From a virus: a stretch of DNA of 42,468 nucleotides. Below are positions 4,902 through 42,468 of the stretch, one piece after another. Made by a program: the position numbers and the translations under genes. The stretch lies in IMG/VR virus record IMGVR_UViG_3300035670_000470, positions 1 to 42,468 of that record. One strand, given 5' to 3'. The notes under the pieces are model-generated. The model was not told the origin of the DNA and ran no database searches. It worked only from the letters and a program-made list of their open reading frames with translations. The stretch's first letter is position 1; every line of letters begins with the position of its first letter.

Positions 4902-5459
4902 TCACTGGCTGCCGGAAGCCATGGCCTGACGCTGGGCCAGTTCCTTGAGCTCTTGCTCGGTCAGGGGCGGCAGCACCTCGATAGCGAACTCCTTGATGAG
5001 CTTGCCTTCGGAGGTCTGCAGGCCACGCACGCGCTTCTTGACGAAGATCTGGCACTCGCGCTGCTTGAGCTGGTTCAGGATGATCTGCTCGACGTGCCAG
5101 CCCTCTTCGGCGTTGAAGGGCACGTAGCGCTTGAAGGTGCCGACCACGGAGTTGGAGGCGGTAAAGATCTCGCCATCCCACTCCTTCTTGTTCGGGTTCA
5201 TACACGTCACCCGGATGCGCACCAGCTTGCTGGCTTCATCACGCAGGCGACGCACACGCTGATTCCTGGTTTCACCCTCATGGGCTTCCCCGGTGTCCTT
5301 GGCGCCCTGGGTCGGATCGCCCTCGGCCATGGCCGCGTTGATCTTCTCGCGCAGCTTGTCGGCACCGATGGACGGGTGGTAGGACACGCCCAGCTTGTCG
5401 GCGCGGGCCTTGAGGTTCTCGAGTTCGTTCACGTTCAGGTCGTCGTTATGCTCGGACAT
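4902..5459 (-). CDS. Conserved protein encoded after the major capsid gene, HeH/LEM-like N-terminus
   Basis: This encodes 185 residues. The N-terminal segment (residues ~10-45, LKARADKLGVSYHP then KLREKI) resembles the helix-extended-loop-helix fold of HeH/LEM/Rho-N domains that bind nucleic acid or protein. The central part (MNPNKKEWDGEIFTASNSVV) and the C-terminal part rich in Lys, Glu and Leu resemble a protein often found directly after the capsid gene in podoviruses. It is separated from the capsid gene by a hairpin terminator and one cluster of TGCAAT motifs, so it may be expressed at a lower level than the capsid. The exact function is not known to me. Confidence 0.8.
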   Translation of the reverse strand: MSEHNDDLNVNELENLKARADKLGVSYHPSIGADKLREKINAAMAEGDPTQGAKDTGEAHEGETRNQRVRRLRDEASKLVRIRVTCMNPNKKEWDGEIFTASNSVVGTFKRYVPFNAEEGWHVEQIILNQLKQRECQIFVKKRVRGLQTSEGKLIKEFAIEVLPPLTEQELKELAQRQAMASGSQ

Positions 5460-5491
5460 TGCAGTGTTTCCCTATTGCAATAATGCAGTAA
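5460..5491 (-). repeat. TGCAAT repeat cluster in front of the post-capsid gene
   Basis: On the minus strand this stretch contains TACTGCATTATTGCAATA, and a further ACTGCAAT just before and over the start codon at 5459. The same tandem motif occurs at 17567, 29236 and 36378. On the plus strand the core TATTGCAATAATGCAGTAA (5473-5491) matches the 29236 copy with only two A/G changes. See the separate finding. Confidence 0.6.
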
Positions 5492-15915: not shown

Positions 15916-15947
15916 CACACACCACACACCACACACCACACACCACA
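15916..15947 (+). repeat. 7-bp tandem repeat ACACACC x4
   Basis: Four exact copies of ACACACC (15917-15944), with partial copies at both sides. The strand is C/A-only here. It lies just after the terminator and before the CATAGACAGAC motif (15945-15955), which recurs at 16388-16398. A shorter ACCACACACCAC segment also recurs at 16346. The region 15916-16195 otherwise holds hairpin 2 and no gene. Confidence 0.85.
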
Positions 15948-17566: not shown

Positions 17567-17584
17567 TACTGCAATACTGCAATA
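17567..17584 (+). repeat. Tandem ACTGCAAT motif
   Basis: TACTGCAATACTGCAATA: two back-to-back copies of an 8-bp unit, with a third partial copy (GGCTGCAAT) inside the following terminator stem. It is the same motif as at 5460, 29236 and 36378. Confidence 0.7.
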
Positions 17585-17609
17585 GGGCTGCAATCACGCA
17601 GCCCTTTTT
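17585..17609 (+). terminator. Rho-independent terminator
   Basis: GGGCTGC (17585-17591) pairs with GCAGCCC (17598-17604) around AATCAC and is followed by TTTTT. It directly abuts the TGCAAT tandem repeat. Confidence 0.9.
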
Positions 17610-17626
17610 CGTGGGAGACAGTAGCC

Positions 17627-19075: not shown

Positions 19076-20323
19076 ATGCAGACGTTCACCGGCTTCGAAT
19101 ACCTCCTGATCGATGCGGCCAACAACTTTGGCCTGGACAAGGAGACCTACGACTCACGCATCATCTGGACCAAGGCCAACCTCGACAAGCTCGAGACACT
19201 GGTGGAAGAGGCTGACGACAAGGAGCAGTTCTACTCTGCTGTGCTGGCCATCCGGGAAGCTCAGGCCGGCAAGCCCTCAGGCCACCTGGTGGGCTTCGAT
19301 GCCATCTGCTCAGGCATGCAGATCATGTCTGCCATCACCGGCTGCCACAGCGGTGCCCAAGCCACTGGCCTGATCGACACCGGCTACCGTCCTGACGCCT
19401 ACAACGAGACCACCGAGGAGATGGGCAGGGTCATGGGTGGCCAGTTCCTGGTCGACCGCAAGGACGTCAAGGCCGCGGTCATGACCATGCTCTACGGCTC
19501 CAAAGCCAAGCCCAAGGAGATCTTCGGAGAAGAGACCCCTGAGCTGGCTGGCTTCTACCAGGCAGTGGCCAACATCGCTCCTGGGGCCTACGAGCTCCTC
19601 CAGGTGCTTCTGGATTCCTGGCAACCCTTTGCCCTGATGCACCGCTGGGTGCTCCCTGACGGCTTCGTTGCCCGCGTCAAGGTCATGGAAACTGTGGACG
19701 CCAGGATCGAGGTGGACGAGATGGACCATGCCTCTTTCACCTATGAGTGGAAAGAGAACGTGGGCAGCCAGACCGGCCTCAGCAACGTGGCCAACGTCAT
19801 CCACTCGATCGATGCCTACGTGCTGCGTAGCCTGATTCGTCGCTGCTCCTACGATCCCTCAGTGGTGCAGAGAGCACTGCAATACTGCACTACTGAAATC
19901 ATGGAGCGCGACTTGGCAGGCCTGGCCCAGGACACCGACCTGAGCCGTGCACCGGAAGCCATCCAGAAGTACGTGGAGCGGTTCCAGGCCACCAACATCG
20001 TGGATGCAGTAATCCTGCCTCACCTCAACCATGACACCGTGATATACCTCTCTAACGACCACCTGCGTCGCCTCAACCTCATGATGGAGTCCATGCTCGA
20101 GCACAAGCCGTTCCATGTCGTGGCCATCCACGATGACTTCCGCTGCCACCCCAACTACATGAACTACCTCCGGGCCCACTACCGACATGTGTTCATCGAG
20201 CTGGCCAACTCCGAGGTGCTCTCCGACATCCTCTCGCAGATCCATGGCGTCGCTGGCACCTACCGCAAGCTGTCGTCCGATCTCTCGGAGAAGATTGCCG
20301 GGTCCCAGTACGCAATCTGCTGA
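19076..20323 (+). CDS. RNA polymerase, catalytic polypeptide (RNAP2, N4 gp16-like)
   Basis: This encodes 415 residues from ATG 19076, seven bases after GGAG; the ATG at 19070 is only one base from it. All three T7-family palm/fingers motifs are present: motif A GFDAICSGMQ (catalytic Asp75), motif B with Arg128, Lys132 and Tyr140 in the spacing RxxxKxxxxxxxY as in T7, and motif C AIHDDFRC (His352-Asp353). It is the active-site half that pairs with RNAP1 to make the middle-gene RNA polymerase. A strong terminator follows at 20401. Confidence 0.93.
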   Translation: MQTFTGFEYLLIDAANNFGLDKETYDSRIIWTKANLDKLETLVEEADDKEQFYSAVLAIREAQAGKPSGHLVGFDAICSGMQIMSAITGCHSGAQATGLIDTGYRPDAYNETTEEMGRVMGGQFLVDRKDVKAAVMTMLYGSKAKPKEIFGEETPELAGFYQAVANIAPGAYELLQVLLDSWQPFALMHRWVLPDGFVARVKVMETVDARIEVDEMDHASFTYEWKENVGSQTGLSNVANVIHSIDAYVLRSLIRRCSYDPSVVQRALQYCTTEIMERDLAGLAQDTDLSRAPEAIQKYVERFQATNIVDAVILPHLNHDTVIYLSNDHLRRLNLMMESMLEHKPFHVVAIHDDFRCHPNYMNYLRAHYRHVFIELANSEVLSDILSQIHGVAGTYRKLSSDLSEKIAGSQYAIC

Positions 20324-20493: not shown

Positions 20494-20916
20494 ATGGCCC
20501 ATATTCCCTTTTCAGAGTTGGTTGGTAAGACCCGGGTCACCGCGGAAGTCAACCAAGGCAGGGACGAGATCACCTTCGTCACCACCGAAGGTGAGCGCTA
20601 CAAGCTACTGCACTTCAACGACTGCTGTGAGTGCGTCTCCATCGAAGACATCGATGGCGACATGGAAGACCTGATCGGCAGTCCCATTCTGGTTGCTGAA
20701 GAAGTCTCCAACCAGGAACCCGACACCTTGCGCCTGATCACCCCTGAAGTGTTCAAGGCAGAACAGGGGGCCGACTCCTTCACCGGGACCTTCTACAAGA
20801 TCGACACCGCTCAAGGTGGTGTCTGCATCCGCTGGTTTGGTGAGTCCAACGGTTATTACAGCGAGTCCGTGGACTTCGTGAAGGCCGACGAAGACGGCGA
20901 GTTCCCTCGCTGGTAG
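20494..20916 (+). CDS. DUF7448-like conserved phage protein
   Basis: This encodes 140 residues. The central text YKLLHFNDCCECVSIEDIDG then DMEDLIGSPILVAEE is a pattern shared by a small phage protein family (HxxDCCExVxIEDIxGDxxDLIGxPI). The paired Cys and acidic residues may bind metal, but the function is unknown. GGAG lies upstream. Its last codons overlap the 19-bp palindrome that precedes the HTH gene. Confidence 0.8.
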   Translation: MAHIPFSELVGKTRVTAEVNQGRDEITFVTTEGERYKLLHFNDCCECVSIEDIDGDMEDLIGSPILVAEEVSNQEPDTLRLITPEVFKAEQGADSFTGTFYKIDTAQGGVCIRWFGESNGYYSESVDFVKADEDGEFPRW

Positions 20917-20996: not shown

Positions 20997-21449
20997 ATGG
21001 CTCGTACCAGCAAACTGAATGACAAGCAGAAAGACCGTGTGGTGGAACTGGTCCAAGCAGGCAAGTCCCGCAAGGATGTGGCCACCTTCTTCAACGTGTC
21101 GCCCCGGACCATCTACCGGGTGCTCTATGAGAAGGGGCTCCAGACAGACAGCAGTGAGCCTCGAGTGGTCACAGCCACTCTGGGGCCTGCCCAGGCCCGC
21201 CACCACCTCACCCATCTCTCTGATGATGAGCAGGCCATCCTGCGCATCTGCAAAGCCGCTGGCTTGAATGCAGACGCTCTGCGTCGCACCCTGGCCACGC
21301 CTGCCCTGACACCTGAGAACATCCGTACCACGCTCACCAGCCTGGCAGCCGACCAGCTCGGCATGTTCCTCGACTCCGTCTACACCACCCGTGCTCTGGC
21401 TTCCCTGAGCAAGGCCACCCAACCCGTGCAACAGGAGATGCCCGCATGA
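20997..21449 (+). CDS. Helix-turn-helix DNA-binding regulator
   Basis: This encodes 150 residues. Residues 5-45 (LNDKQKDRVVELVQAGKSRK then DVATFFNVSPRTIYRVLYEK) form a homeodomain/resolvase-type HTH with the usual GKS..DVA..F.VS..TIYR pattern. The rest is helical and may mediate multimer formation. The gene is preceded by a perfect palindrome plus extra half-sites, suggesting that it controls its own promoter, and it starts a run of six overlapping or near-touching small genes. It is a candidate switch for middle gene expression or lysogeny, by inference. Confidence 0.82.
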   Translation: MARTSKLNDKQKDRVVELVQAGKSRKDVATFFNVSPRTIYRVLYEKGLQTDSSEPRVVTATLGPAQARHHLTHLSDDEQAILRICKAAGLNADALRRTLATPALTPENIRTTLTSLAADQLGMFLDSVYTTRALASLSKATQPVQQEMPA

Positions 21450-28737: not shown

Positions 28738-29246
28738 TGAATCCCAACGTCCGTTCCCGGTCCGAATTTGTGGGGCATGTCATCGAGCAGGTGTATGCCC
28801 CGGCCATAGCCAAACAGAAAGCCATCCTCGACCAGATCATCATCGACAACACCGCCCTGCTGGGCAGTAGCAGCTTCTCCTTCAACTTCCTGGGCGAGAC
28901 CTACCGCATGAACTCCCGCGAGCCTTTGCCGCGGCGAGTCAATCGGCTGGCTCCCCAGCTGCACGAACGCATGCGGGAGTTCCTGAGGCAGCGTGCCGAG
29001 ATCCTGGTGGAGCAGCCCTACATCAATGGCTTCTTCCGTCAGGTGGTGTCGGTCGGCAGGAACTACACCGACTACATCGCGCTGACCCCCAGCGTGGTGC
29101 ACCAGATCATCCATAGCATCAAGAACGCCCTGCCTCAGGGCGAAGCCAGCCTGGATCCGGATGAGGTGGATGCGTTCCATGTGAAACACCGCCAGAGCAT
29201 GTTCATGGTGCAGCAGCGCATGGCGCTCAACCTCATATTGCAGTAA
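28737..29246 (+). CDS. N4 gp38-like protein of unknown function
   Basis: This encodes 169 residues starting MNPNVRSRSEFVGHVIEQVY, its ATG sharing a base with the helicase stop. It is helical and basic (RMREFLRQRAEILVEQPYIN, VVHQIIHSIKNALPQGEASL). In N4-like phages a conserved gene of about this size lies between helicase and DNA polymerase. Position, rather than a motif, supports the call. Its last codons lie inside a TGCAAT repeat cluster that precedes the polymerase. Confidence 0.75.
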   Translation: MNPNVRSRSEFVGHVIEQVYAPAIAKQKAILDQIIIDNTALLGSSSFSFNFLGETYRMNSREPLPRRVNRLAPQLHERMREFLRQRAEILVEQPYINGFFRQVVSVGRNYTDYIALTPSVVHQIIHSIKNALPQGEASLDPDEVDAFHVKHRQSMFMVQQRMALNLILQ

Positions 29247-29267
29247 TGCAATAATGTGGCACTGCAA
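29236..29267 (+). repeat. TGCAAT repeat cluster before the DNA polymerase
   Basis: TATTGCAGTAATGCAATAA (29236-29254), then ACTGCAAT at 29261-29268. It overlaps the stop of the gp38-like gene and lies directly upstream of the polymerase ribosome site. The 19-base core equals the 5473-5491 core except for two A/G changes. Confidence 0.7.
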
Positions 29268-29281
29268 TTAGGAGCCCTCTC

Positions 29282-31360
29282 ATGCGTCATCTTATCTTCG
29301 AGCAGTCCGACACCTACCCTGTCGTCGTCCTGATCAAGACCAGCTACCTGCGTCAGTACGAGTTGGAGCAGAACTACCTGCTGCCCCTGGTGCCCGAAGT
29401 CCCGATCAAGGACGTGGTGGCCATCGACCTGGCTTACGACCAGAACGGCAAGGCCCCGGCCAAGCTGATCAAGGAGTACCTGGAAGAGCTGCTGCCCGCC
29501 ATCGACTCGATCGGAGGCAAGTTCATCTACTGCGCGGATGCCACCTACTTCAAGGCGCTGACCAAGCAGACCAAGGGCAAAGCCGAGAGCCACATCGGCT
29601 ACGTCGTGCCTTGCCGCATCCCGGGCTATGAGCACCTCCAGGTCATCCTGGGGGTGAACTACGGTCAGCTGGTCTACAACCCAGATCAGTACCACCGGCT
29701 GGACCTCACCCTTAAGACGCTCAAGACGGCCTACTCCGGCAACTACCAGGAGCTGGGTCTGAACATCATCCACGGGGCTGAGTATCCCAAGAGCCCCACC
29801 GCTATCGCGGACGCCCTGCGCGGTCTCATGATCCACGAGACCCTGTCGTGTGACATCGAGGGCTTCTCCCTGCACCCCATGGACGCAGGCATCGGCACCA
29901 TCGCCTTTGCCTGGGACCACCACCATGGACTCGCCTTTCCGGTCGACTACCTCACGCTCCCTGAGCCTGAGGACGGTCTCCATGGGGTGCAGCGCGAGAA
30001 CCGCACTGTCAGGAAGCTGCTCAAGGAGTTCTTCACCCGCTATCAAGGCCGGCTGCGCTTCCACAACGCCGCCTACGACGTGCGCTCGCTGATCTACGCC
30101 CTGTGGATGGAGCACGCTGAGGACTGGGAGGGGCTGCTCGAGGGCCTACACATCATGTGCCGGTCCTTCGATGACACCAAGGTGATTGCCTACCTGGCCC
30201 TGAACTCCACGGCCGAGGTGAAGCTCAGCCTCAAGGACCTGGCCCACGAGTTCGCCGGCAACTACGCCCAGGAGGAGATCAAAGACATTCGGAAGATCCC
30301 CCAGGACGAGCTGCTCGAGTACAACCTGGTCGATTGTCTGGCCACCAACTACGTCTACGACAGGCACTACCCGATGATGGTGGCCGATCAGCAGGAGGAG
30401 CTCTACACGACCCTGATGCTGCCCAGCCTCAAGACCATCATCCAGATGGAGCTGGTGGGCATGCCGATGGATCCGGACAAGGTCCAGTACGCCAAGGAGG
30501 AGCTACAGAAGGAGGAAGCCAGCTACCTGGCGGTGTTCCAGAACAACCCGATCATCCAGCAGCTGGAGAAGACCCTGACCGATCGGGCCTGGGAGAAGGA
30601 CTATGAGGACCGCAAAGCCAAGGCCAAGAATCCGGACAAGATCATGCCCAAGCTGCGGGCTGGTTTCCCCACCACCGAGTTCAACCCGAACTCGGGCCCT
30701 CAGCTGCAAATCCTGCTCTATGAGCAGCTTGGCTTGCCGGTCATCGACAAGACCAAGACCAAGCAGCCGGCCACCGGTGGGGACACCCTGGAGAAGCTGG
30801 TCCACCACACCACCGATCCTGCGGTGGTGGAGCTGATCGAGGCCTTGATCGGATACGCTGGGGTGGCCAAGATCCTGACCGCATTCATCCCCAAGTTCGA
30901 GGAAGCCAAGAGCAAGGAGTCGGCTCACGTCACCTGGCTTCACGGCAACTTCAACCTGGGGGGCACGGTCTCCGGCCGGCTAAGCTCGAGCAAACCGAAC
31001 CTGCAGCAGATCCCCTCGAACAGCAAGTACGGCAAGCTGATCAAGGATGCCTTTGTGGCCCAGCATGGTTGGATCATGGCGGGTGCCGACTTCAACAGCC
31101 TGGAGGACTACATCAGTGCGCTGACCACCAAGGATCCTGCCAAATTGGATGTGTACCTCAGGGGCTTTGACGGTCACTGCTATAGGGCATACGCATACTT
31201 CAAGGATCAGATGCCTGATATTCAACAGGCAGAGCCTGAAGATAGGTGCTTTAAGGTAGTCTCAAATGGCCAAACTTTCTTCTGCAAAAGTGGGGATCTT
31301 ATTGTAGACTTAAACGGAAACAAGATTCCTGTGGAGGACTACTATGCGGCCAATTCCTGA
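29282..31360 (+). CDS. DNA polymerase A, N-terminal piece (exonuclease + palm motif A)
   Basis: This encodes 692 residues with TTAGGAG upstream. The 3'-5' exonuclease motifs are SCDIEGFSL (Asp191, Glu193), FHNAAYD (Asn262, Asp266) and EYNLVDCLA (Tyr347, Asp351). The polymerase part has GTVSGRLSSSKPNLQQIPS (561-579) and motif A AGADFNSLEDY (Asp603), as in N4 gp39. After about residue 655 the homology ends in a ~37-residue tail (CFKVVSNGQTFFCKSGDLIV and more), and a stop follows where the HNH gene begins. Motifs B and C are encoded after the HNH gene. Base composition becomes A/T-richer from about 31140, consistent with imported DNA. Confidence 0.92.
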   Translation: MRHLIFEQSDTYPVVVLIKTSYLRQYELEQNYLLPLVPEVPIKDVVAIDLAYDQNGKAPAKLIKEYLEELLPAIDSIGGKFIYCADATYFKALTKQTKGKAESHIGYVVPCRIPGYEHLQVILGVNYGQLVYNPDQYHRLDLTLKTLKTAYSGNYQELGLNIIHGAEYPKSPTAIADALRGLMIHETLSCDIEGFSLHPMDAGIGTIAFAWDHHHGLAFPVDYLTLPEPEDGLHGVQRENRTVRKLLKEFFTRYQGRLRFHNAAYDVRSLIYALWMEHAEDWEGLLEGLHIMCRSFDDTKVIAYLALNSTAEVKLSLKDLAHEFAGNYAQEEIKDIRKIPQDELLEYNLVDCLATNYVYDRHYPMMVADQQEELYTTLMLPSLKTIIQMELVGMPMDPDKVQYAKEELQKEEASYLAVFQNNPIIQQLEKTLTDRAWEKDYEDRKAKAKNPDKIMPKLRAGFPTTEFNPNSGPQLQILLYEQLGLPVIDKTKTKQPATGGDTLEKLVHHTTDPAVVELIEALIGYAGVAKILTAFIPKFEEAKSKESAHVTWLHGNFNLGGTVSGRLSSSKPNLQQIPSNSKYGKLIKDAFVAQHGWIMAGADFNSLEDYISALTTKDPAKLDVYLRGFDGHCYRAYAYFKDQMPDIQQAEPEDRCFKVVSNGQTFFCKSGDLIVDLNGNKIPVEDYYAANS

Positions 31361-32057
31361 TTACGAGAATGAATACTTGATATCAGAAACCGGTGAGGTT
31401 ACGCGCAGAGAAACAGGCCGGGTTATTCGGCCCTCTCTGAACCCCCAAAATGGCTATCTTTACGTCGGGCTGTGGAAAGACAACAAGGGCAAGACCTGCT
31501 CAGTTCACAGGCTTGTAGCGAGGACTTTCATCCCCAATCCCGATCAAAAGCCTTTTGTTAACCACAAAGACAGCAATCGAACCAACGCAAATAAAAACAA
31601 CCTTGAGTGGGCCACCCAATCTGAAAACATCCAGCATGGGTATGATTTCGGGAACATGAGTCAAAGAGTCCAACGAAGGTTTAAGGAGTTCGAGCTTGAT
31701 GTAATTCTTCAAACCTTTTTGTCTGGCATCACCATGACGGCCATTGCCCGGCAACATGAATGTGGGCTTTCTAGGTTAACCATCAACCTCCGTAAAAGAG
31801 CGGCCGATACCGGTCTGCTGGAAGACTTTGAAAGTCAACTTAGACTCCAGAAAGTATCCCGAAATACAAAGGCAAACGAAAACAAAAAGAAAAGGGTAAG
31901 TCAGTACACCCCTCAAGGAGAACACATTGCCACCTTCAGTAGCCTGAACGAAGCAGCAAAAGCTCTGGGTAAAAAGAGTGCAGGGTCTATTTCTAATGCC
32001 CTCAATCCTCTCCACCCTCAAGAAAAGGCGTTTGGTTTCTTATGGAAATACACGTAG
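31344..32057 (+). CDS. HNH homing endonuclease (NUMOD4-HNH-NUMOD1)
   Basis: This encodes 237 residues. A NUMOD4-like start (YENEYLISETGEVTRRETGR, then YLYVGLWKDNKGK and VHRLVARTFIPNP) leads into the HNH core VNHKDSNRTNANKNNLEWAT (His74, Asn residues, Glu88-Trp89). A C-terminal NUMOD1 helix-turn-helix follows (VSQYTPQGEHIATFSSLNEA, then KALGKKSAGSISNAL). It nicks or cuts DNA to spread into intact polymerase genes. GGAGG stands six to seven bases before the ATG. It overlaps the polymerase N piece by 17 bases and the next polymerase piece by 16 bases. It is clearly A/T-richer than the genome, a mark of transfer. Confidence 0.95.
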   Translation: MRPIPDYENEYLISETGEVTRRETGRVIRPSLNPQNGYLYVGLWKDNKGKTCSVHRLVARTFIPNPDQKPFVNHKDSNRTNANKNNLEWATQSENIQHGYDFGNMSQRVQRRFKEFELDVILQTFLSGITMTAIARQHECGLSRLTINLRKRAADTGLLEDFESQLRLQKVSRNTKANENKKKRVSQYTPQGEHIATFSSLNEAAKALGKKSAGSISNALNPLHPQEKAFGFLWKYT

Positions 32058-32170
32058 GTGCTGACTGTTCTATAGAGCAGATAGAAGCAGCTGAATACAA
32101 CGCATCTCAAATCAACCGGATCAAAAAGGAGTATGGGGCTCTTCGTCAGAAATCGAAGAGCCCCACCTAG
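32042..32170 (+). pseudogene. DNA polymerase A fragment ending in the middle of motif B
   Basis: From ATG 32042, inside the end of the HNH gene, 42 residues are read. After MEIHVGADCSIEQIEAAEYN they give INRIKKEYGALRQKSKSPT, the beginning of the polymerase fingers helix (motif B, RxxxKxPT). A TAG stop (32168-32170) then cuts it. The continuation FALTYAGT is in the -1 frame beginning at 32173. Five extra bases (TAGCT) between the two parts explain the break. It is either a mutation or a site of -1 frameshifting. Confidence 0.7.
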
Positions 32171-32199
32171 CTTTTGCTCTTACGTATGCAGGGACTTGG

Positions 32200-32811
32200 A
32201 TGACCTTGGTTAAGAATCTGGGTTTCTCCGAGAAAGAGGCAAAAGAAATCGAGAAGGCGTACCACGACCTTTACAAGGTCTCGGATGAGTGGGTGAAGGC
32301 CAAGATGGATCAGGCCTCCAAGGATGGCTACGTGGATGTGGCGTTCGGTCTACGCGTCAGGACGCCCCTGCTGGCTCAGGTGATCCGAGGGCACAGGACC
32401 ACGCCCTACCAGGCAGAGGCCGAAGCCAGGACCGCTGGTAACGCCCTGGGCCAGTCCTACGGGCTGCTCAACAACCGGGCCGCCAACGCCTTCATGGAGA
32501 AGGTGTGGGCCAGCAAGCACCGCACCTCGATCCTGCCGATCGCCCAGATTCACGATGCCATCTACCTCCTGATCAAAGACGACCTGGAGGTGGTGGAGTG
32601 GGTCAACGAGAACCTGATCGCTGAGATGCAGTGGCAGGACCTGCCCGAGATCCAGCATGACACCGTCAAGCTGGGTGCCGAGCTCGACCTGTTATGGCCA
32701 TCTTGGGCCCACCCGGTGACGCTGCCCAACGAAGCCAGTGCCGAGAAAATCCTGGCCCTCTCCCGAGAGCACCGTCAATCCCTGGAGGACGAGTTTCGGG
32801 AAGCTGCCTGA
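32200..32811 (+). CDS. DNA polymerase A, C-terminal piece (motif C)
   Basis: The first ATG (MTLVKNLGFSEKEA) gives 203 residues. The frame is open from 32095, so the ten residues before this ATG (FALTYAGTW, end of motif B) are also encoded. Motif C is AQIHDAIYLL (His118-Asp119), and the text YVDVAFGLRVRTPLL is typical of N4-like polymerases. With the N piece at 29282 it would rebuild a family A polymerase. A start at ATG 32200 would lose the key motif B residues. Whether an upstream start, frameshift or trans-complementing pieces are used cannot be told from the sequence. Confidence 0.85.
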   Translation: MTLVKNLGFSEKEAKEIEKAYHDLYKVSDEWVKAKMDQASKDGYVDVAFGLRVRTPLLAQVIRGHRTTPYQAEAEARTAGNALGQSYGLLNNRAANAFMEKVWASKHRTSILPIAQIHDAIYLLIKDDLEVVEWVNENLIAEMQWQDLPEIQHDTVKLGAELDLLWPSWAHPVTLPNEASAEKILALSREHRQSLEDEFREAA

Positions 32812-36265: not shown

Positions 36266-36358
36266 CTTGAGGTGTCGTGTAATGGCGACAGTTCACAGAA
36301 AAAATCAAGATAAGCCGCGTAATCTTGCTTTTGCTGCACCCGCAGCATGTAGGTTATC

Positions 36359-36375
36359 CGTAATTACGTATTACG
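36359..36375. promoter_or_regulatory. Inverted repeat CGTAAT-N5-ATTACG
   Basis: CGTAAT (36359-36364) and ATTACG (36370-36375) are perfect inverted arms separated by TACGT. It lies directly beside the TGCAAT tandem repeat. The stretch 36266-36422 holds no gene and looks like a control region. Confidence 0.6.
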
Positions 36376-36377
36376 AA

Positions 36378-36465
36378 ACTGCAATACTGCAATACCCATT
36401 CACTGCAACAGGTATTGAAGCCATGACTGCAATCGCTACTGCCACCAGCATTGAAGTACTGCAAC
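36378..36465 (+). repeat. Cluster of five ACTGCAA motifs
   Basis: ACTGCAATACTGCAATA (36378-36394) is a tandem pair. Three further copies are ACTGCAAC near 36402, ACTGCAAT near 36426 and ACTGCAAC near 36458, extending into the start of the next gene. It is the densest cluster of this motif in the window and lies close to the partition genes. Confidence 0.7.
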
Positions 36466-36608
36466 AACTCCAGGGCACCAACGAGCTGCTCCTGAAACGC
36501 ATCGAGGAGCTCGAGGAAGACAAGATGATGCTGCTCGCTGAACGGGATGTTCACGAGGCCGAGATGAAGGAGATCCGGCGTCAGCTTGGATCCATGCGCG
36601 GGGCCTGA
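36423..36608 (+). CDS. Small coiled-coil protein (61 residues)
   Basis: It starts MTAIATATSIEVLQQLQGTN, then a coiled coil (LLKRIEELEEDKMMLLAERD). The motif ACTGCAAT overlaps the start codon. No strong ribosome site is visible. The short leucine-zipper-like form could mediate dimer formation with a partner; the function is unknown. Confidence 0.6.
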   Translation: MTAIATATSIEVLQQLQGTNELLLKRIEELEEDKMMLLAERDVHEAEMKEIRRQLGSMRGA

Positions 36609-36638: not shown

Positions 36639-36857
36639 ATGTCAGATCTCAGGAAGGAGCGGGTAGGCATCACTCACGTCGCCCGCATGCTCAACGTCAG
36701 CGTCACCGAAATCAAAGAGGCCCTTCACCAGGGCCTCCCTCTCCGCGGTCACCCCCTCCCCAAGCCGATTGCGCGAGGCCAGGGCTCCACCGGTACCCAG
36801 GTCAGCTTCTACCTGGGTGACATCATGGACCTGGCCCAAGCCATGAAAGGAAGGTAA
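36639..36857 (+). CDS. Small DNA-binding protein, winged-HTH/excisionase-like
   Basis: This encodes 72 residues with AGGAGG upstream. The text VGITHVARMLNVSVTEIKEA then a short wing (PLRGHPLPKPIA) and FYLGDIMDLAQ resembles MerR/AlpA/excisionase-type small regulators, in which the HTH recognises DNA and the following loop forms a wing. It is convergent with the partition operon, only seven bases from its last gene. It may regulate the neighbouring plasmid or early promoters. Confidence 0.65.
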   Translation: MSDLRKERVGITHVARMLNVSVTEIKEALHQGLPLRGHPLPKPIARGQGSTGTQVSFYLGDIMDLAQAMKGR

Positions 36858-36864
36858 CGGTATA

Positions 36865-37143
36865 TCACTCAGGCTGCTCAGGGATGTCTCGAGAGCCCAT
36901 GCGCCGGTAGTAGAGCAGCAGCTCGCTCTCCATCGGGATCAGACCCATCGGGTAGAGCAGCTGTCGCTCCCAGGAGTCTGGTCTGGCCGAGCCCTCAGCT
37001 ACCGTGACAGCCACATGCCGGATAACGTCCGCCACACTCTCCAGGGGGAGACGCCACTCTCCCCCATGGGTCTGCATCTCTTCCAGTAGTATCTCGAGCT
37101 CCCGATAGGTCTGCTCGTGCAACTCGAAAGTGACGACCTTCAT
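36865..37143 (-). CDS. Third gene of the partition operon (92 residues)
   Basis: The start at ATG 37143 overlaps the stop of the RHH gene (TGATG), with GAGGT upstream. The N-terminus MKVVTFELHEQTYRELEILL has a strand followed by a helix and could be the beginning of a ribbon-helix-helix-like fold, but the rest (EWRLPLESVADVIRHVAVTV) is not typical. No family is recognised. Its strict coupling to parA and the RHH gene suggests a role in plasmid maintenance or copy control. Confidence 0.65.
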   Translation of the reverse strand: MKVVTFELHEQTYRELEILLEEMQTHGGEWRLPLESVADVIRHVAVTVAEGSARPDSWERQLLYPMGLIPMESELLLYYRRMGSRDIPEQPE

Positions 37144-37409
37144 CAGTCGCACCTCACCTTGTTCTTGATCTGCCAGTCGGTCAGGGCCTCTTCGATCAGG
37201 TCGGCCTCGGCCACCTTGGTGCCCGACTCGATGGTGCGACGATAGGCCTCGTCACGCAGCATCTCCGAGAAGCGCAGCTTCATGCGCACGGTCTTGGTGA
37301 TGCGAATGTCTCGACCGTCCGTCCGGTTGTCGACCTTCTCTGGCTCTTGTCCGCGCCAGGTCTCGAGATTTAGGGCATCCTCATTGCTCAGTTCCGGCTT
37401 GGTTTTCAT
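37143..37409 (-). CDS. Ribbon-helix-helix partition adaptor (ParB/ParG-like)
   Basis: This encodes 88 residues. A flexible N-terminal tail (MKTKPELSNEDALNLETWRG) is followed by a strand and two helices (DIRITKTVRMKLRFSEMLRD, ADLIEEALTDWQIKNK), the RHH pattern of ParG, Omega and similar centromere-binding proteins that partner short ParA ATPases. Its ATG overlaps the parA stop (ATGA). Dimers of such proteins bind tandem 7-8 bp motifs. The ACTGCAAT repeats are therefore plausible targets, although this is only inference. Confidence 0.78.
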   Translation of the reverse strand: MKTKPELSNEDALNLETWRGQEPEKVDNRTDGRDIRITKTVRMKLRFSEMLRDEAYRRTIESGTKVAEADLIEEALTDWQIKNKVRCD

Positions 37410-38038
37410 GACCAGTTCTCAACCTCTTCGTAGAACTTGCTGGTTTCATAGGTCGCCGCAGCGATCTTCGGCTTGTACTCGTTGACCGTCAGCCCTTCCC
37501 CGGTGGAGTGGCGATAGACCGCACGCTCCCCGATGTTGGTACTGAACAGGGGCAAGCCCCGCTCTTCCACGAAGGCCCGTAGCTCTTCGTCCTGGCTCCG
37601 GGAATCGATCCGGCTCAGCAGCACCATGACCTCAAGACTTCGGTTGAAGGCTCTGGCTTCTTCAACACGATCCATGAACTCGTCCAGAGGGGCTGCGTCC
37701 ATGCCTGAGTTACCGATCGGAATGATCAGACGCTCAGCCAACAACAGTGCGTTGCGCAAGCCAGCCCCATCACGACCGCCCGCATCAATCACGGTGTTCT
37801 GGAAGTTGGTGGACAGTGCCAGGCCCTCGTCGTAGACGGCCTTGCCCCGCAGACGGACAGTGGTGGGAGACTTCAGATTACGGTGCTCACGACGCCAACC
37901 TGCCCAGGTTGCAGAGCTCTCCTGGGGGTCACCATCGATGAGCAGGGTAGGCCCGGACTGCGCGAAGCGGGTGGCCAGGTGGACAGCAATCGTGGTTTTG
38001 CCCACTCCCCCCTTCTGGTACACGACGGCGTAGCGCAT
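37406..38038 (-). CDS. parA: ParA-type partition ATPase
   Basis: This encodes 210 residues, the size of type Ib (ParF-like) plasmid ParA proteins without an N-terminal HTH. A deviant Walker A KGGVGKTT lies at residues 9-16, Walker A' LLIDGDPQESS at about residues 34-44, and Walker B-like TVIDAGGRDG follows. It would position replicons by binding the nucleoid and cycling ATP with its RHH partner. AAGGA lies upstream of the ATG. It is transcribed away from the rep gene, with the 370-base control region between. Confidence 0.92.
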   Translation of the reverse strand: MRYAVVYQKGGVGKTTIAVHLATRFAQSGPTLLIDGDPQESSATWAGWRREHRNLKSPTTVRLRGKAVYDEGLALSTNFQNTVIDAGGRDGAGLRNALLLAERLIIPIGNSGMDAAPLDEFMDRVEEARAFNRSLEVMVLLSRIDSRSQDEELRAFVEERGLPLFSTNIGERAVYRHSTGEGLTVNEYKPKIAAATYETSKFYEEVENWS

Positions 38039-38289
38039 ACTGCGTTCCTTCTTGGCTTATGGCGTTATTGCAACATTGGCTTCAATGCGTGATGCAGAGA
38101 GCAGCGTAGGCACCGAAACGGCCCCTGACAAGGAGCGATGAAAAAAATCAGACTCTGCCCCGAAACGGATTAGCGAGGGAGCCTGCGACCGAGTCTGTCC
38201 GTGAGGGGGAGGGTCATCCCAAAACCACCTCCCATAGATAGAGAAGGGGAGCGTTTTTCCAGCCCGTAAAATCAATCACTTACTGAGTG

Positions 38290-38399
38290 ACATGTGTCAC
38301 CCCATGACACATACATGTGTCATCCCATGCAACATCCACCTTGCCCTTAGACACCTATGGTGTCTAAGATGAACCCATCATGTGTCATCCCATGCAACA
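38290..38399 (+). repeat. Three iteron-like 22-bp direct repeats
   Basis: Consensus ACATGTGTCATCCCATGCAACA at 38290, 38313 and 38378. Copies 2 and 3 differ by one base and copy 1 by a few. Spacing is 23 and 65 bases, close to two and six DNA turns. Copy 3 ends ten bases before the rep ATG, so binding there would also control rep expression. Confidence 0.85.
38347..38367. promoter_or_regulatory. Perfect 9+3+9 inverted repeat in the rep leader
   Basis: TTAGACACC-TAT-GGTGTCTAA. A dimeric regulator or a Rep dimer could bind here. It lies between iterons 2 and 3, 42 bases before the rep start. Confidence 0.8.
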
Positions 38400-38408
38400 G
38401 GAGCCGGT

Positions 38409-38834
38409 ATGGCCTTCCCCGCAGAGGCGCCCAGCAACGTGAACTTCACCCAGTTCAGTAACGCTTACCTACCCGCCTGGCGTGCCCTGATACGCAAGAA
38501 CCCCATCGCTGCCGAGATCCTGATGTTCCTCATCGAACACATGGGCAAGCAGCACAACGTGGTCATGCTGTCCCAGGCCACGATGATGGAGCTTACTGGA
38601 CGTTCCCGATCAACCATCTCCAGGGCCATCAAGACCCTGCGAGAGGATAACTGGATCGACGTCGTGCAGATAGGCAAGGCCTCGGCCTATGCTGTCAACG
38701 AGCGCATCGCCTGGCGTACCCACGCCAACCAGAGGAAGTACGCCTACTTCAGCGCCTCGATCGTAGCGACCTCTACCGACCAGGTGGAGATCAAGAAAAG
38801 CAAGCTCAAGCACATACCCGTCATAGACGACTAA
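38409..38834 (+). CDS. RepL-like winged-helix plasmid replication initiator
   Basis: This encodes 141 residues from ATG 38409 (AGGAG upstream; a GTG 27 bases earlier lies inside iteron 3). The pattern YLPAWRALIRKNPIAAEILM, then NVVMLSQATMMELTGRSRST, then ISRAIKTLREDNWIDVVQIG and AYAVNERIAWRT is that of RepL-type and related plasmid initiators, a winged helix with a recognition helix at SRSTISRAIK. It would bind the iterons, start replication and repress itself. It could instead act only as a repressor. Confidence 0.78.
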   Translation: MAFPAEAPSNVNFTQFSNAYLPAWRALIRKNPIAAEILMFLIEHMGKQHNVVMLSQATMMELTGRSRSTISRAIKTLREDNWIDVVQIGKASAYAVNERIAWRTHANQRKYAYFSASIVATSTDQVEIKKSKLKHIPVIDD

Positions 38835-40707: not shown

Positions 40708-42468
40708 TCAGTTTCTCCTTCAGTTCTTCGATCTCTGACTTCAGTTCTTTGATGGCCTCGATCAGTAAGCCGACCATGTTGCCGTAGGCCACCGAGTAAT
40801 GCCCTTCCGGATCCGCTTCGGTAGGACCGCCCGTCACCGCTTCAGGAATTACCTCCAGCACCTCCTGGGCAATCACCCCGGTCTGACGCATTCCGGTATC
40901 CGTCCGATCAAAGGTGTAGCCCGACAGCTTGCTCACCTTCTCCAGTGCATCCGGAATCACCTCGATATTAGTCTTCACCCGCACATCGGAATAGGCCGTG
41001 ACGTTGCCAGAGGTCCAGATGTTGTCACCCATGGCCGCCCTGCCCACACCGTTGGCACACCACACCATCATGTGTCCACCAGCCATCGTGCCGCCAGTGG
41101 CGTTGTTGGTGTGCTTGTAGGCTAGGCCGTAGAGATTTCCGAAGTCGGCTCCGCTTGCAGCAATGGCATAGGCCGTACCCATGGACCAGATATGCCCGAT
41201 GAGGGTCGAGTTGTAGATTCCGTACATACCCGCTTGGCGGGTACCGGTGTTGTTCACCGAGATCTTGCCATCGGACGCCACCGACAAGTGGTTGCCCAGC
41301 ACCGTTACTTGGTCCCCGGCGTGCGTGTGCGCAGCAGGGGCAAAGGTAGATGGCTTGCTAGTCACCTCACTCCAGGTGGGCCAGCGGGTCGCCGTCGTAG
41401 GCAGACGTGCGTTAGCCACCGTGCCGGTGCTCAGGTTGCTGGCGTTTAGGTCGGTGAGCCCGGCACCGCTTCCCACTACGTCACCGAAAACCGTCTGCAG
41501 AGTGGCCCTGACGGTCCCGCCACCCGCGGTGTAAGTGGTGATCGGAGTGAAGCCCCCTGCACTAATTAGGGCAATGGTAACTGTGTATTCGTGATCACCT
41601 GCACCCACTGCACTATCTAAAACTTCAACAAAGCAGTTGTTGGCATCTATATCTGTGAGCCTCACCTGAACCTGGGTGTAGTTGCCACTCTGAAGCTGCA
41701 TAAGTCGCCTAGAGTTGCTGTGATTACAGGTAACCATGAAAGCCGTGTTAACAACAACACTGGTTCTCGTATGGTTTAGCGAGACGAGGTACACCCCGCC
41801 TAAGGAGTTCACTACCGTCCGGCCGATCCTTGACCAAGACCCTTGTCGAACAATGGCCCTATAGGAGTGGCGCCCCAGATAGCGACTATCGTGATCCCCA
41901 GACGTCCGGTGATCGTTCATCGCCTTGGCATTCAGCAGGGTCACCGTACTGGAGTTGGTCCGGGAATCCGTGGTCAACGGCTTGTCGGAAACTTCCGCGT
42001 AGGTGGGCCAGCGAGTCGCGGTATCCGGTGCCGCCACAATCTGGCTCCAGTCGTGGCTATGCGTAGAAGGGACAAAGGTCGTCGGCTTGCCCGTGACCTC
42101 ACCCCATGTCGGCCACCGGGTTGCCGTAGCCGGAGCCCCGGTCACCTCAGCCCAGGGGTGGGTATGACTGGCTGCTGCTGCACCGATCTCCGCCAGGGTC
42201 CAGGAGACGTCCGCGGCACCATTCACCGACTTGCCGGTACTCCCGATCGTGAAGGTACGTGCCGTGCCCCACAGCGCGGTGGTGATGTTGGCCGTGCCAT
42301 TGAAGCCAGTGCCGTTGATGGTGCGGCTGGTTTGCAGCGCGGAGGCTGTCGAGGCATTGATGGTGTAGCTGCCCGAAAGTCGCGCAGCCGGCACCGTACC
42401 AGACGCCAGGGCCCCGGCACTGAGGTTGGTCAAGCCAGCCCCGTTACCGGTGAACTGAGCGCCCTGTG
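40694..42468 (-). CDS. Tail fibre with C-terminal S74 self-cleaving chaperone (5' end beyond window)
   Basis: The frame is open to the right edge, so the start lies outside. The visible ~590 residues contain repeated blocks RWPTWxEVTxKPxTFxPxxHxH and GxGxGLTNLxAxxLAxGTVPxARL, typical of trimeric fibres. The C-terminus has the Peptidase_S74 domain: SDVRVKTNI with the Ser-Lys pair, then LSGYTFDRTDTGMRQTGVIA and QEVLEVIPEAV, ending in a coiled coil. In this family the domain folds the trimer and cuts itself off at the Ser. The fibre binds host receptors. Confidence 0.93.
   Translation of the reverse strand, partial: QGAQFTGNGAGLTNLSAGALASGTVPAARLSGSYTINASTASALQTSRTINGTGFNGTANITTALWGTARTFTIGSTGKSVNGAADVSWTLAEIGAAAASHTHPWAEVTGAPATATRWPTWGEVTGKPTTFVPSTHSHDWSQIVAAPDTATRWPTYAEVSDKPLTTDSRTNSSTVTLLNAKAMNDHRTSGDHDSRYLGRHSYRAIVRQGSWSRIGRTVVNSLGGVYLVSLNHTRTSVVVNTAFMVTCNHSNSRRLMQLQSGNYTQVQVRLTDIDANNCFVEVLDSAVGAGDHEYTVTIALISAGGFTPITTYTAGGGTVRATLQTVFGDVVGSGAGLTDLNASNLSTGTVANARLPTTATRWPTWSEVTSKPSTFAPAAHTHAGDQVTVLGNHLSVASDGKISVNNTGTRQAGMYGIYNSTLIGHIWSMGTAYAIAASGADFGNLYGLAYKHTNNATGGTMAGGHMMVWCANGVGRAAMGDNIWTSGNVTAYSDVRVKTNIEVIPDALEKVSKLSGYTFDRTDTGMRQTGVIAQEVLEVIPEAVTGGPTEADPEGHYSVAYGNMVGLLIEAIKELKSEIEELKEKLNGTT

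Follow-up and report, generated by a model that had tools for sequence, protein, structure and literature searches.

The window analysed here is the entire 42,468-bp virus record IMGVR_UViG_3300035670_000470, and all motif counts cover that record. Its capsid, RNAP1/RNAP2, DNA polymerase and gene order identify it as an N4-like phage, with the gene content and order of the Schitoviridae; the capsid shares 67% identity with its counterpart in Pseudomonas phage LUZ7, and the RNA polymerase and DNA polymerase are assigned to N4-like families. By a gene list made by hand, 9.3% of the window is noncoding. The DNA polymerase gene is split (29282-32811): an N-terminal ORF that ends in an intein-like tail (CFKVVSNGQTFFCKSGDLIVD) is followed by an HNH-type ORF (31344-32057) and then by the C-terminal ORF (32200-32811).

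Beside this N4-like core, the window encodes a small ParA ATPase and an adjacent, putative ribbon-helix-helix (RHH) protein (Table 1). ParA matches Pfam CbiA (6e-14) and phrog_164 (5e-37), carries the P-loop KGGVGKTT at residues 9-16 and, as in type Ib partition systems, is a short Walker-type protein that lacks the N-terminal HTH. The RHH protein has no Pfam match, and its sequence found no match among PDB sequences; its AF2 model contains two confident core helices (pLDDT ~95), and the best fold match, weak by score (Z 4.6), is the RHH ParB of pCXC100. No family match was obtained for the small protein whose gene overlaps that of the RHH protein. The iteron-like repeats that precede the Rep-like gene are likely a plasmid origin and are an element separate from the 8-bp boxes described below.

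An earlier note on this DNA had reported tandem pairs of an 8-bp motif, ACTGCAAT, dispersed at gene boundaries, and had proposed a count against a shuffled background. The motif proves to be far above chance, with 9 matches in the window against 1.16 expected and none of 100 shuffles reaching 9; the tandem pair with up to three mismatches (<=3) also gives 9 matches, against 0.17 expected. All four pairs, reported at 5473, 17567, 29236 and 36378, lie within one base of those positions, although those at 5473 and 29236 deviate from an exact ACTGCAAT pair by one or two mismatches. The third copy said to lie near each pair is found at 5458, 29261 and 36402, each 16 bp away and in register, but the one at 17588 is off register and part of a terminator hairpin. 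A weaker pair noted inside RNAP2 is likewise present, at 19876.

The repeating unit is better described as AYTGCART, a near-palindrome around a TGCA core, with a step of exactly 8 bp or a multiple of it. Cores fall in register at 5460/5476/5484, 29239/29247/29263, 36380/36388/36404/36428/36460 and 38069/38093, and over the whole window 16 TGCA pairs are spaced 8, 16, 24, 32 or 40 bp apart (5 at 8 bp, 3 at 16 bp, 6 at 24 bp), compared with about 0.6 at each other distance. The geometry TGCANTANTGCARTAN7ACTGCA has three exact matches in the window where 0.01 would be expected; this box-8-box-16-box order is common to three sites, with the third box closest to the start codon.

The four strong sites (A at 5458, B at 17568, D at 29237 and E at 36378) occupy gene starts or ends, as had been claimed: A, B and E are entirely noncoding and D partly so. 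Site A sits between the capsid-gene terminator and the start of the next gene (4902-5459, phrog_2130), and site E, the largest array of the window, is upstream of and reaches into the gene at 36423-36608; most of the window's arrays have two or three boxes. The RNAP2 site is entirely coding, no array was detected in the orthologous RNAP2 coding part of the related contig G016 (see below), and these boxes are probably incidental, a call made with low confidence. A further noncoding site upstream of parA, absent from the earlier list, is weaker than A, B, D and E. It resembles positions 36400-36433 (76%, inverted), and 8-bp tandem units are present in this flank, where lag 8 is the best of lags 5-14. 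No sigma-70-like promoter was recognised near site E or parA. Upstream of E, two inverted repeats at 36305-36375 (AATCAAGATAAGCCGCGTAATCTTG; CGTAATTACGTATTACG) are conserved in G016 and could be N4-type hairpin promoters. Elsewhere, an intergenic simple-sequence stretch at 15916-15947 holds 4.6 copies of the 7-bp unit CACACAC.

Table 1. Box arrays and associated features of the window, with orthologous sites in G016 (coordinates of that contig).
Feature	Coordinates	Strand	Remarks
Site A	5458..5489	-	Boxes 5482-5489, 5474-5481, 5458-5465
Site B	17568..17583	+	Two perfect boxes, then terminator hairpin 17585-17610
RNAP2 internal boxes	19876..19899	+	Three boxes inside coding sequence
HTH_7 protein	20997..21449	+	Rival candidate binder; common to G016
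Site D	29237..29268	+	Boxes 29237, 29245, 29261; just 5' of DNA polymerase gene (29282)
Site E	36378..36465	+	Boxes 36378, 36386, 36402, 36426, 36458; spacings multiples of 8
Small protein	36865..37152	-	Overlaps RHH gene; partner or unrelated
RHH protein	37143..37409	-	88 aa, beside ParA; candidate box-binding ParB-like protein
ParA ATPase	37406..38038	-	210 aa, no N-terminal HTH (type Ib size)
parA upstream boxes	38054..38096	-	AATGTTGC AATAACGC CATAAGCC, plus GATGCAGA 24 bp beyond
Iteron-like repeats	38290..38399	+	Three, 21-23 bp (CATGTGTCATCCCATGCAACA), before Rep-like HTH_36 gene
Rep-like protein	38382..38834	+	HTH_36 / replication-initiator-like; conserved in G016
G016 site B orthologue	20775-20798		Hairpin follows here too
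G016 site D orthologue	32376-32399		
G016 site E orthologue	41666-41713		Six boxes

A search with the capsid gathered 80 N4-like loci, namely L059, L060, L069 and 77 others (~1 Mb together). In the three named loci, 8-bp arrays follow the capsid terminator at the position of site A; the 77 others contain no array, with single chance matches in L101 and L123, and in about 19 other close N4-like phages the terminator directly adjoins the gene, with no insert at site A. G016, the N4-like contig of L069, measures 42,820 bp, shares 36 genes in colinear order with the window and holds 22 matches to the box pattern against 0 for the reversed pattern. Its arrays are at 21, 8719, 9967, 13720, 18926, 20775, 23121, 32376, 41037 and 41666, and four of them (8719, 20775, 32376 and 41666) coincide with the boundaries orthologous to those of A, B, D and E, respectively, so that the sites are conserved in a relative, a point on which the earlier note had staked its proposal. 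With ten arrays scattered at random over ~45 boundaries, the chance of a match at all four is near 0.001 by our own rough estimate. Further arrays precede the capsid, portal, lysozyme and RNAP2 genes, and the arrays occupy leaders of genes from several temporal classes. Between G016 and the window the box sequences have drifted and the 8-bp register has been kept. The arrays, their register and their conservation at orthologous boundaries are real.

When 2.9 million viral contigs were scanned without bias for the box geometry, four matched; one of them (L054) is N4-like by its primase, Sak4 and SSB and has four in-register boxes before the SSB gene. Tandem matches in L008, L010 and L012-L014 were set aside as unrelated, the exact pair there being inside coding sequence (GLDTAILQYL). 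The DNA polymerase of G016 shows a split comparable to that of the window, with an HNH-like ORF of its own. In other respects G016 differs: it lacks the protein encoded at 36639 in the window, no counterpart of the iteron-like repeats was seen in it, and it carries a CI/XRE-type HTH gene (G016 37039-37320; L140 17039-17320), a candidate lysogeny repressor, that was not found in the window.

Relatives of the RHH protein, 29-36% identical and starting with MKxKPxL, are encoded immediately after ParA in Rhodocyclales genomes and on plasmids of Pseudomonas, Stutzerimonas, Burkholderia, Xanthomonas and Stenotrophomonas; the window ParA itself shares 51-54% identity with ParA proteins of plasmids. 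Whether on plasmids or on phage-like contigs, these RHH genes beside ParA are flanked by 8-bp, usually palindromic arrays whose sequence is specific to the member. When lags of 5-14 were compared without bias in the parA-RHH flanks, lag 8 ranked first, alone or in a tie, in 14 of 18 loci, among them the window; the exceptions are L045, L047, L052 and L144, and L045 and L047 show no clear 8-bp array. Plasmids of the Pseudomonas/Burkholderia/Xanthomonas type have TACGTA arrays at parA-RHH, and three whole plasmids gave 44, 34 and 39 matches to this pattern against 1, 2 and 0 for its reverse; on the one plasmid where dispersed arrays were checked, they are intergenic. We found no paper on the centromere of these modules. 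The closest relatives of the window RHH, L046 and L048, have AATAACGC arrays, and the sole exact copy of the AATAACGC pair in the 3.2-Mb genome bin of L046 adjoins the RHH gene. The window's two best matches to this array are both upstream of its own parA, in a comparison where one control pattern resembles the query closely. Among viral contigs, neither the window ParA alone nor an RHH alignment recovered a relative, and a search with a ParA alignment yielded L143 and L144; L143 has ATAGCTAT arrays only beside parA-RHH, and the L144 array is AAAGCTTT-like. The family-wide link between the RHH/ParA operon and 8-bp arrays is real, and since the box sequence varies among relatives, the prediction of binding leans more on architecture than on sequence.

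Type Ib RHH proteins repress their own operon or genes and bind tandem boxes (PMC5016525, PMC9499535). Omega-Delta (pSM19035), ParF-ParG (TP228) and ParAB (pCXC100) resemble the window in having a small ParA without HTH and, beside it, a small RHH partner, of which the 88-aa protein of the window is the candidate counterpart, and type Ib systems also share tandem short boxes upstream of parA and several arrays per replicon (PMC9499535, PMC5016525). The window departs from them in the short arrays at phage lytic genes and, with regard to Omega, in boxes that are 8-bp TGCA palindromes and not 7-bp WATCACW heptads; its RHH protein has no detectable sequence similarity to Omega or ParG, and no Omega match in Pfam. 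The ParA-RHH modules of Pseudomonas, Stutzerimonas, Burkholderia and Xanthomonas plasmids (for example, NZ_CP071900 and pBVIE04; ParA 52-54% and RHH ~30% identical to the window) likewise have 8-bp arrays at par and at other intergenic places, although their boxes are TACGTA, unlike the TGCA of the window. In cluster A mycobacteriophages, many stoperators are distributed over short intergenic spaces of a temperate phage genome, and such dispersed sites can block elongation (PMC9283540). The window sites are spread over the genome in the same kind of space, but stoperators are 13-bp, asymmetric and bound by an HTH repressor. In the phage-plasmid N15, with its dispersed centromeres, and in RK2, with its KorB operators, scattered sites let a single protein act in both partition and gene control, there through HTH ParB-type proteins and inverted repeats.

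We conclude that the boxes are most likely binding sites for the phage's own plasmid-partition protein. The RHH protein at 37143, which the earlier note had put forward as a binder, is the best candidate, with the HTH protein at 20997 a weaker one. Relatives of the RHH protein beside ParA are flanked by 8-bp arrays, and the region upstream of the window's parA carries the array type of the closest of these relatives. From the behaviour of the family, we think it probable that an RHH dimer, one per 8-bp box, binds the arrays. We lean, by a smaller measure, towards boxes that act as cooperative RHH sites for partition and autoregulation, with the distant arrays as extra partition sites and/or operators of lytic genes. 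Under such a scheme, one dimer of the ParB-like protein would bind each near-palindrome cooperatively; the parA-proximal boxes and the five-box site E would provide autoregulation and the centromere, by analogy with type Ib systems; ParA would move the plasmid-state phage; and the distant arrays A, B and D, placed in the gap between a terminator or stop codon and a start codon, would act as additional partition sites and/or as operators keeping lytic genes (the DNA polymerase and the gene after the capsid) repressed during plasmid maintenance. Silencing of lytic genes is plausible, and its attribution to A, B and D, suggested by their placement, is tentative, at slightly under even chances. 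Taken together, the arrays would most likely form a type Ib (RHH) set of operators and centromeres dispersed over an N4-like phage that lives in a plasmid state.

Several observations weigh against this reading, among them the L045 and L047 loci without a clear 8-bp array, the difference in box sequence between RHH relatives and the lack of a recognised sigma-70-like promoter near E or parA. Full activation of ParA by Omega takes four contiguous repeats (PMC9499535), and the few boxes per array in the window count against an RHH partition role. A real difficulty is that G016 has the arrays and no ParA or RHH relative anywhere in its 42.8 kb, including the position homologous to the partition operon, where two other genes stand between site E and the Rep gene. 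N4-like contigs found in the capsid search run to ~70-79 kb, and G016 is likely about 60% of a genome; as G016 is a fragment, an RHH gene could be encoded outside it, or some other protein could bind the arrays. Such a protein, retained in all box-bearing relatives, could be the HTH protein at 20997 or a repressor encoded in the unsequenced third of the genome; the arrays would be its operators, and it would serve as a global lysogeny repressor of the stoperator kind, with ParA/RHH a separate module. The HTH protein is common to the window and G016 (35% identity), array-bearing leaders belong to genes of several temporal classes, and stoperators are an established dispersed design (PMC9283540). 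However, relatives of HTH 20997 occur in N4-like phages (G001, G023) that lack boxes in the parts searched, which makes it a weaker candidate and weakens its case as sole binder; 8-bp steps of a near-palindrome also suit RHH proteins better than HTH dimers, and the window RHH gene belongs to a family linked with 8-bp arrays. We give a different binder a minor, if appreciable, chance.

That the arrays are solely a distributed centromere (parS) for ParA/RHH, with no role in gene control, would accord with family arrays that flank parA-RHH and with the dispersed centromeres of N15-type phages, but arrays directly 5' of start codons at lytic genes have been kept over evolution. Gene repression is also a property of the RHH centromere proteins known to date (PMC9499535), and we judge a purely segregational role improbable. 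Position just 5' of genes, and the one orientation and geometry of three window sites relative to the downstream gene, could mark promoters or processing signals for the phage's N4-type RNA polymerases. Yet these polymerases are conserved in N4-like phages without arrays at site A and around the capsid, site B precedes a terminator, and L011, a siphovirus with no N4-type polymerase in view, carries this box across the promoter of a gene for a small RHH protein; we judge polymerase signals very improbable. Chance or low complexity probably accounts for the RNAP2 copy, and the five viral-contig matches in L008, L010 and L012-L014 are coding coincidences, but for the arrays at large it is barely credible in the face of the excess of motif and geometry, the 8-bp register and the G016 pattern matches, and it is refuted because the arrays are conserved at orthologous boundaries.

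If the phage's own RHH protein is the binder, one protein would couple plasmid-style inheritance to phage gene silencing. N4-like phages are usually called lytic, and integrated N4-like proviruses have been reported (PMC10654107); the lineage described here carries a plasmid partition operon and genome-wide conserved sites. The passages of PMC10654107 consulted mention neither a partition module nor dispersed arrays, and among the papers searched none describes N4-like phages with a partition operon accompanied by conserved, scattered boxes of the RHH type. More speculatively, and somewhat doubtfully, an N4-like clade may live as partitioned plasmids in which a single RHH protein segregates the replicon and silences lytic genes through dispersed arrays that stay at orthologous boundaries as their sequence drifts, with the same RHH/ParA family spreading equivalent arrays over bacterial plasmids. 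A further outcome is a ParA-RHH family, present on plasmids of several proteobacterial genera, in which box differences between members could serve to read RHH-DNA specificity. The PutA operator GTTGCA was considered as a possible parallel in binding specificity.

Comparable arrangements were encountered outside this family. Two Bacteroidota-like mobile elements (L009 4801-6700 and L056 11470-13430) have parA and a 119-126 aa protein without a family match, flanked by TATTGCAATA arrays in 8-bp register; these TGCA-type arrays beside an unrelated small protein may reflect convergence or a remote link. In the low-GC siphovirus L011 (3801-3990), three 8-bp boxes, ATTGCATT ATTGCAGT ATTGCAGT, run into a promoter and precede a gene for a 44-aa RHH protein (Pfam HicB/Omega-like). 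Pantoea phage G19 (PV483189; L035), which is of N4-like size and has no TGCA boxes, encodes ParA and a different RHH protein (2270-2530) surrounded by TCACAYT-like 7-bp repeats, together with UmuD-like and PemK-like genes.
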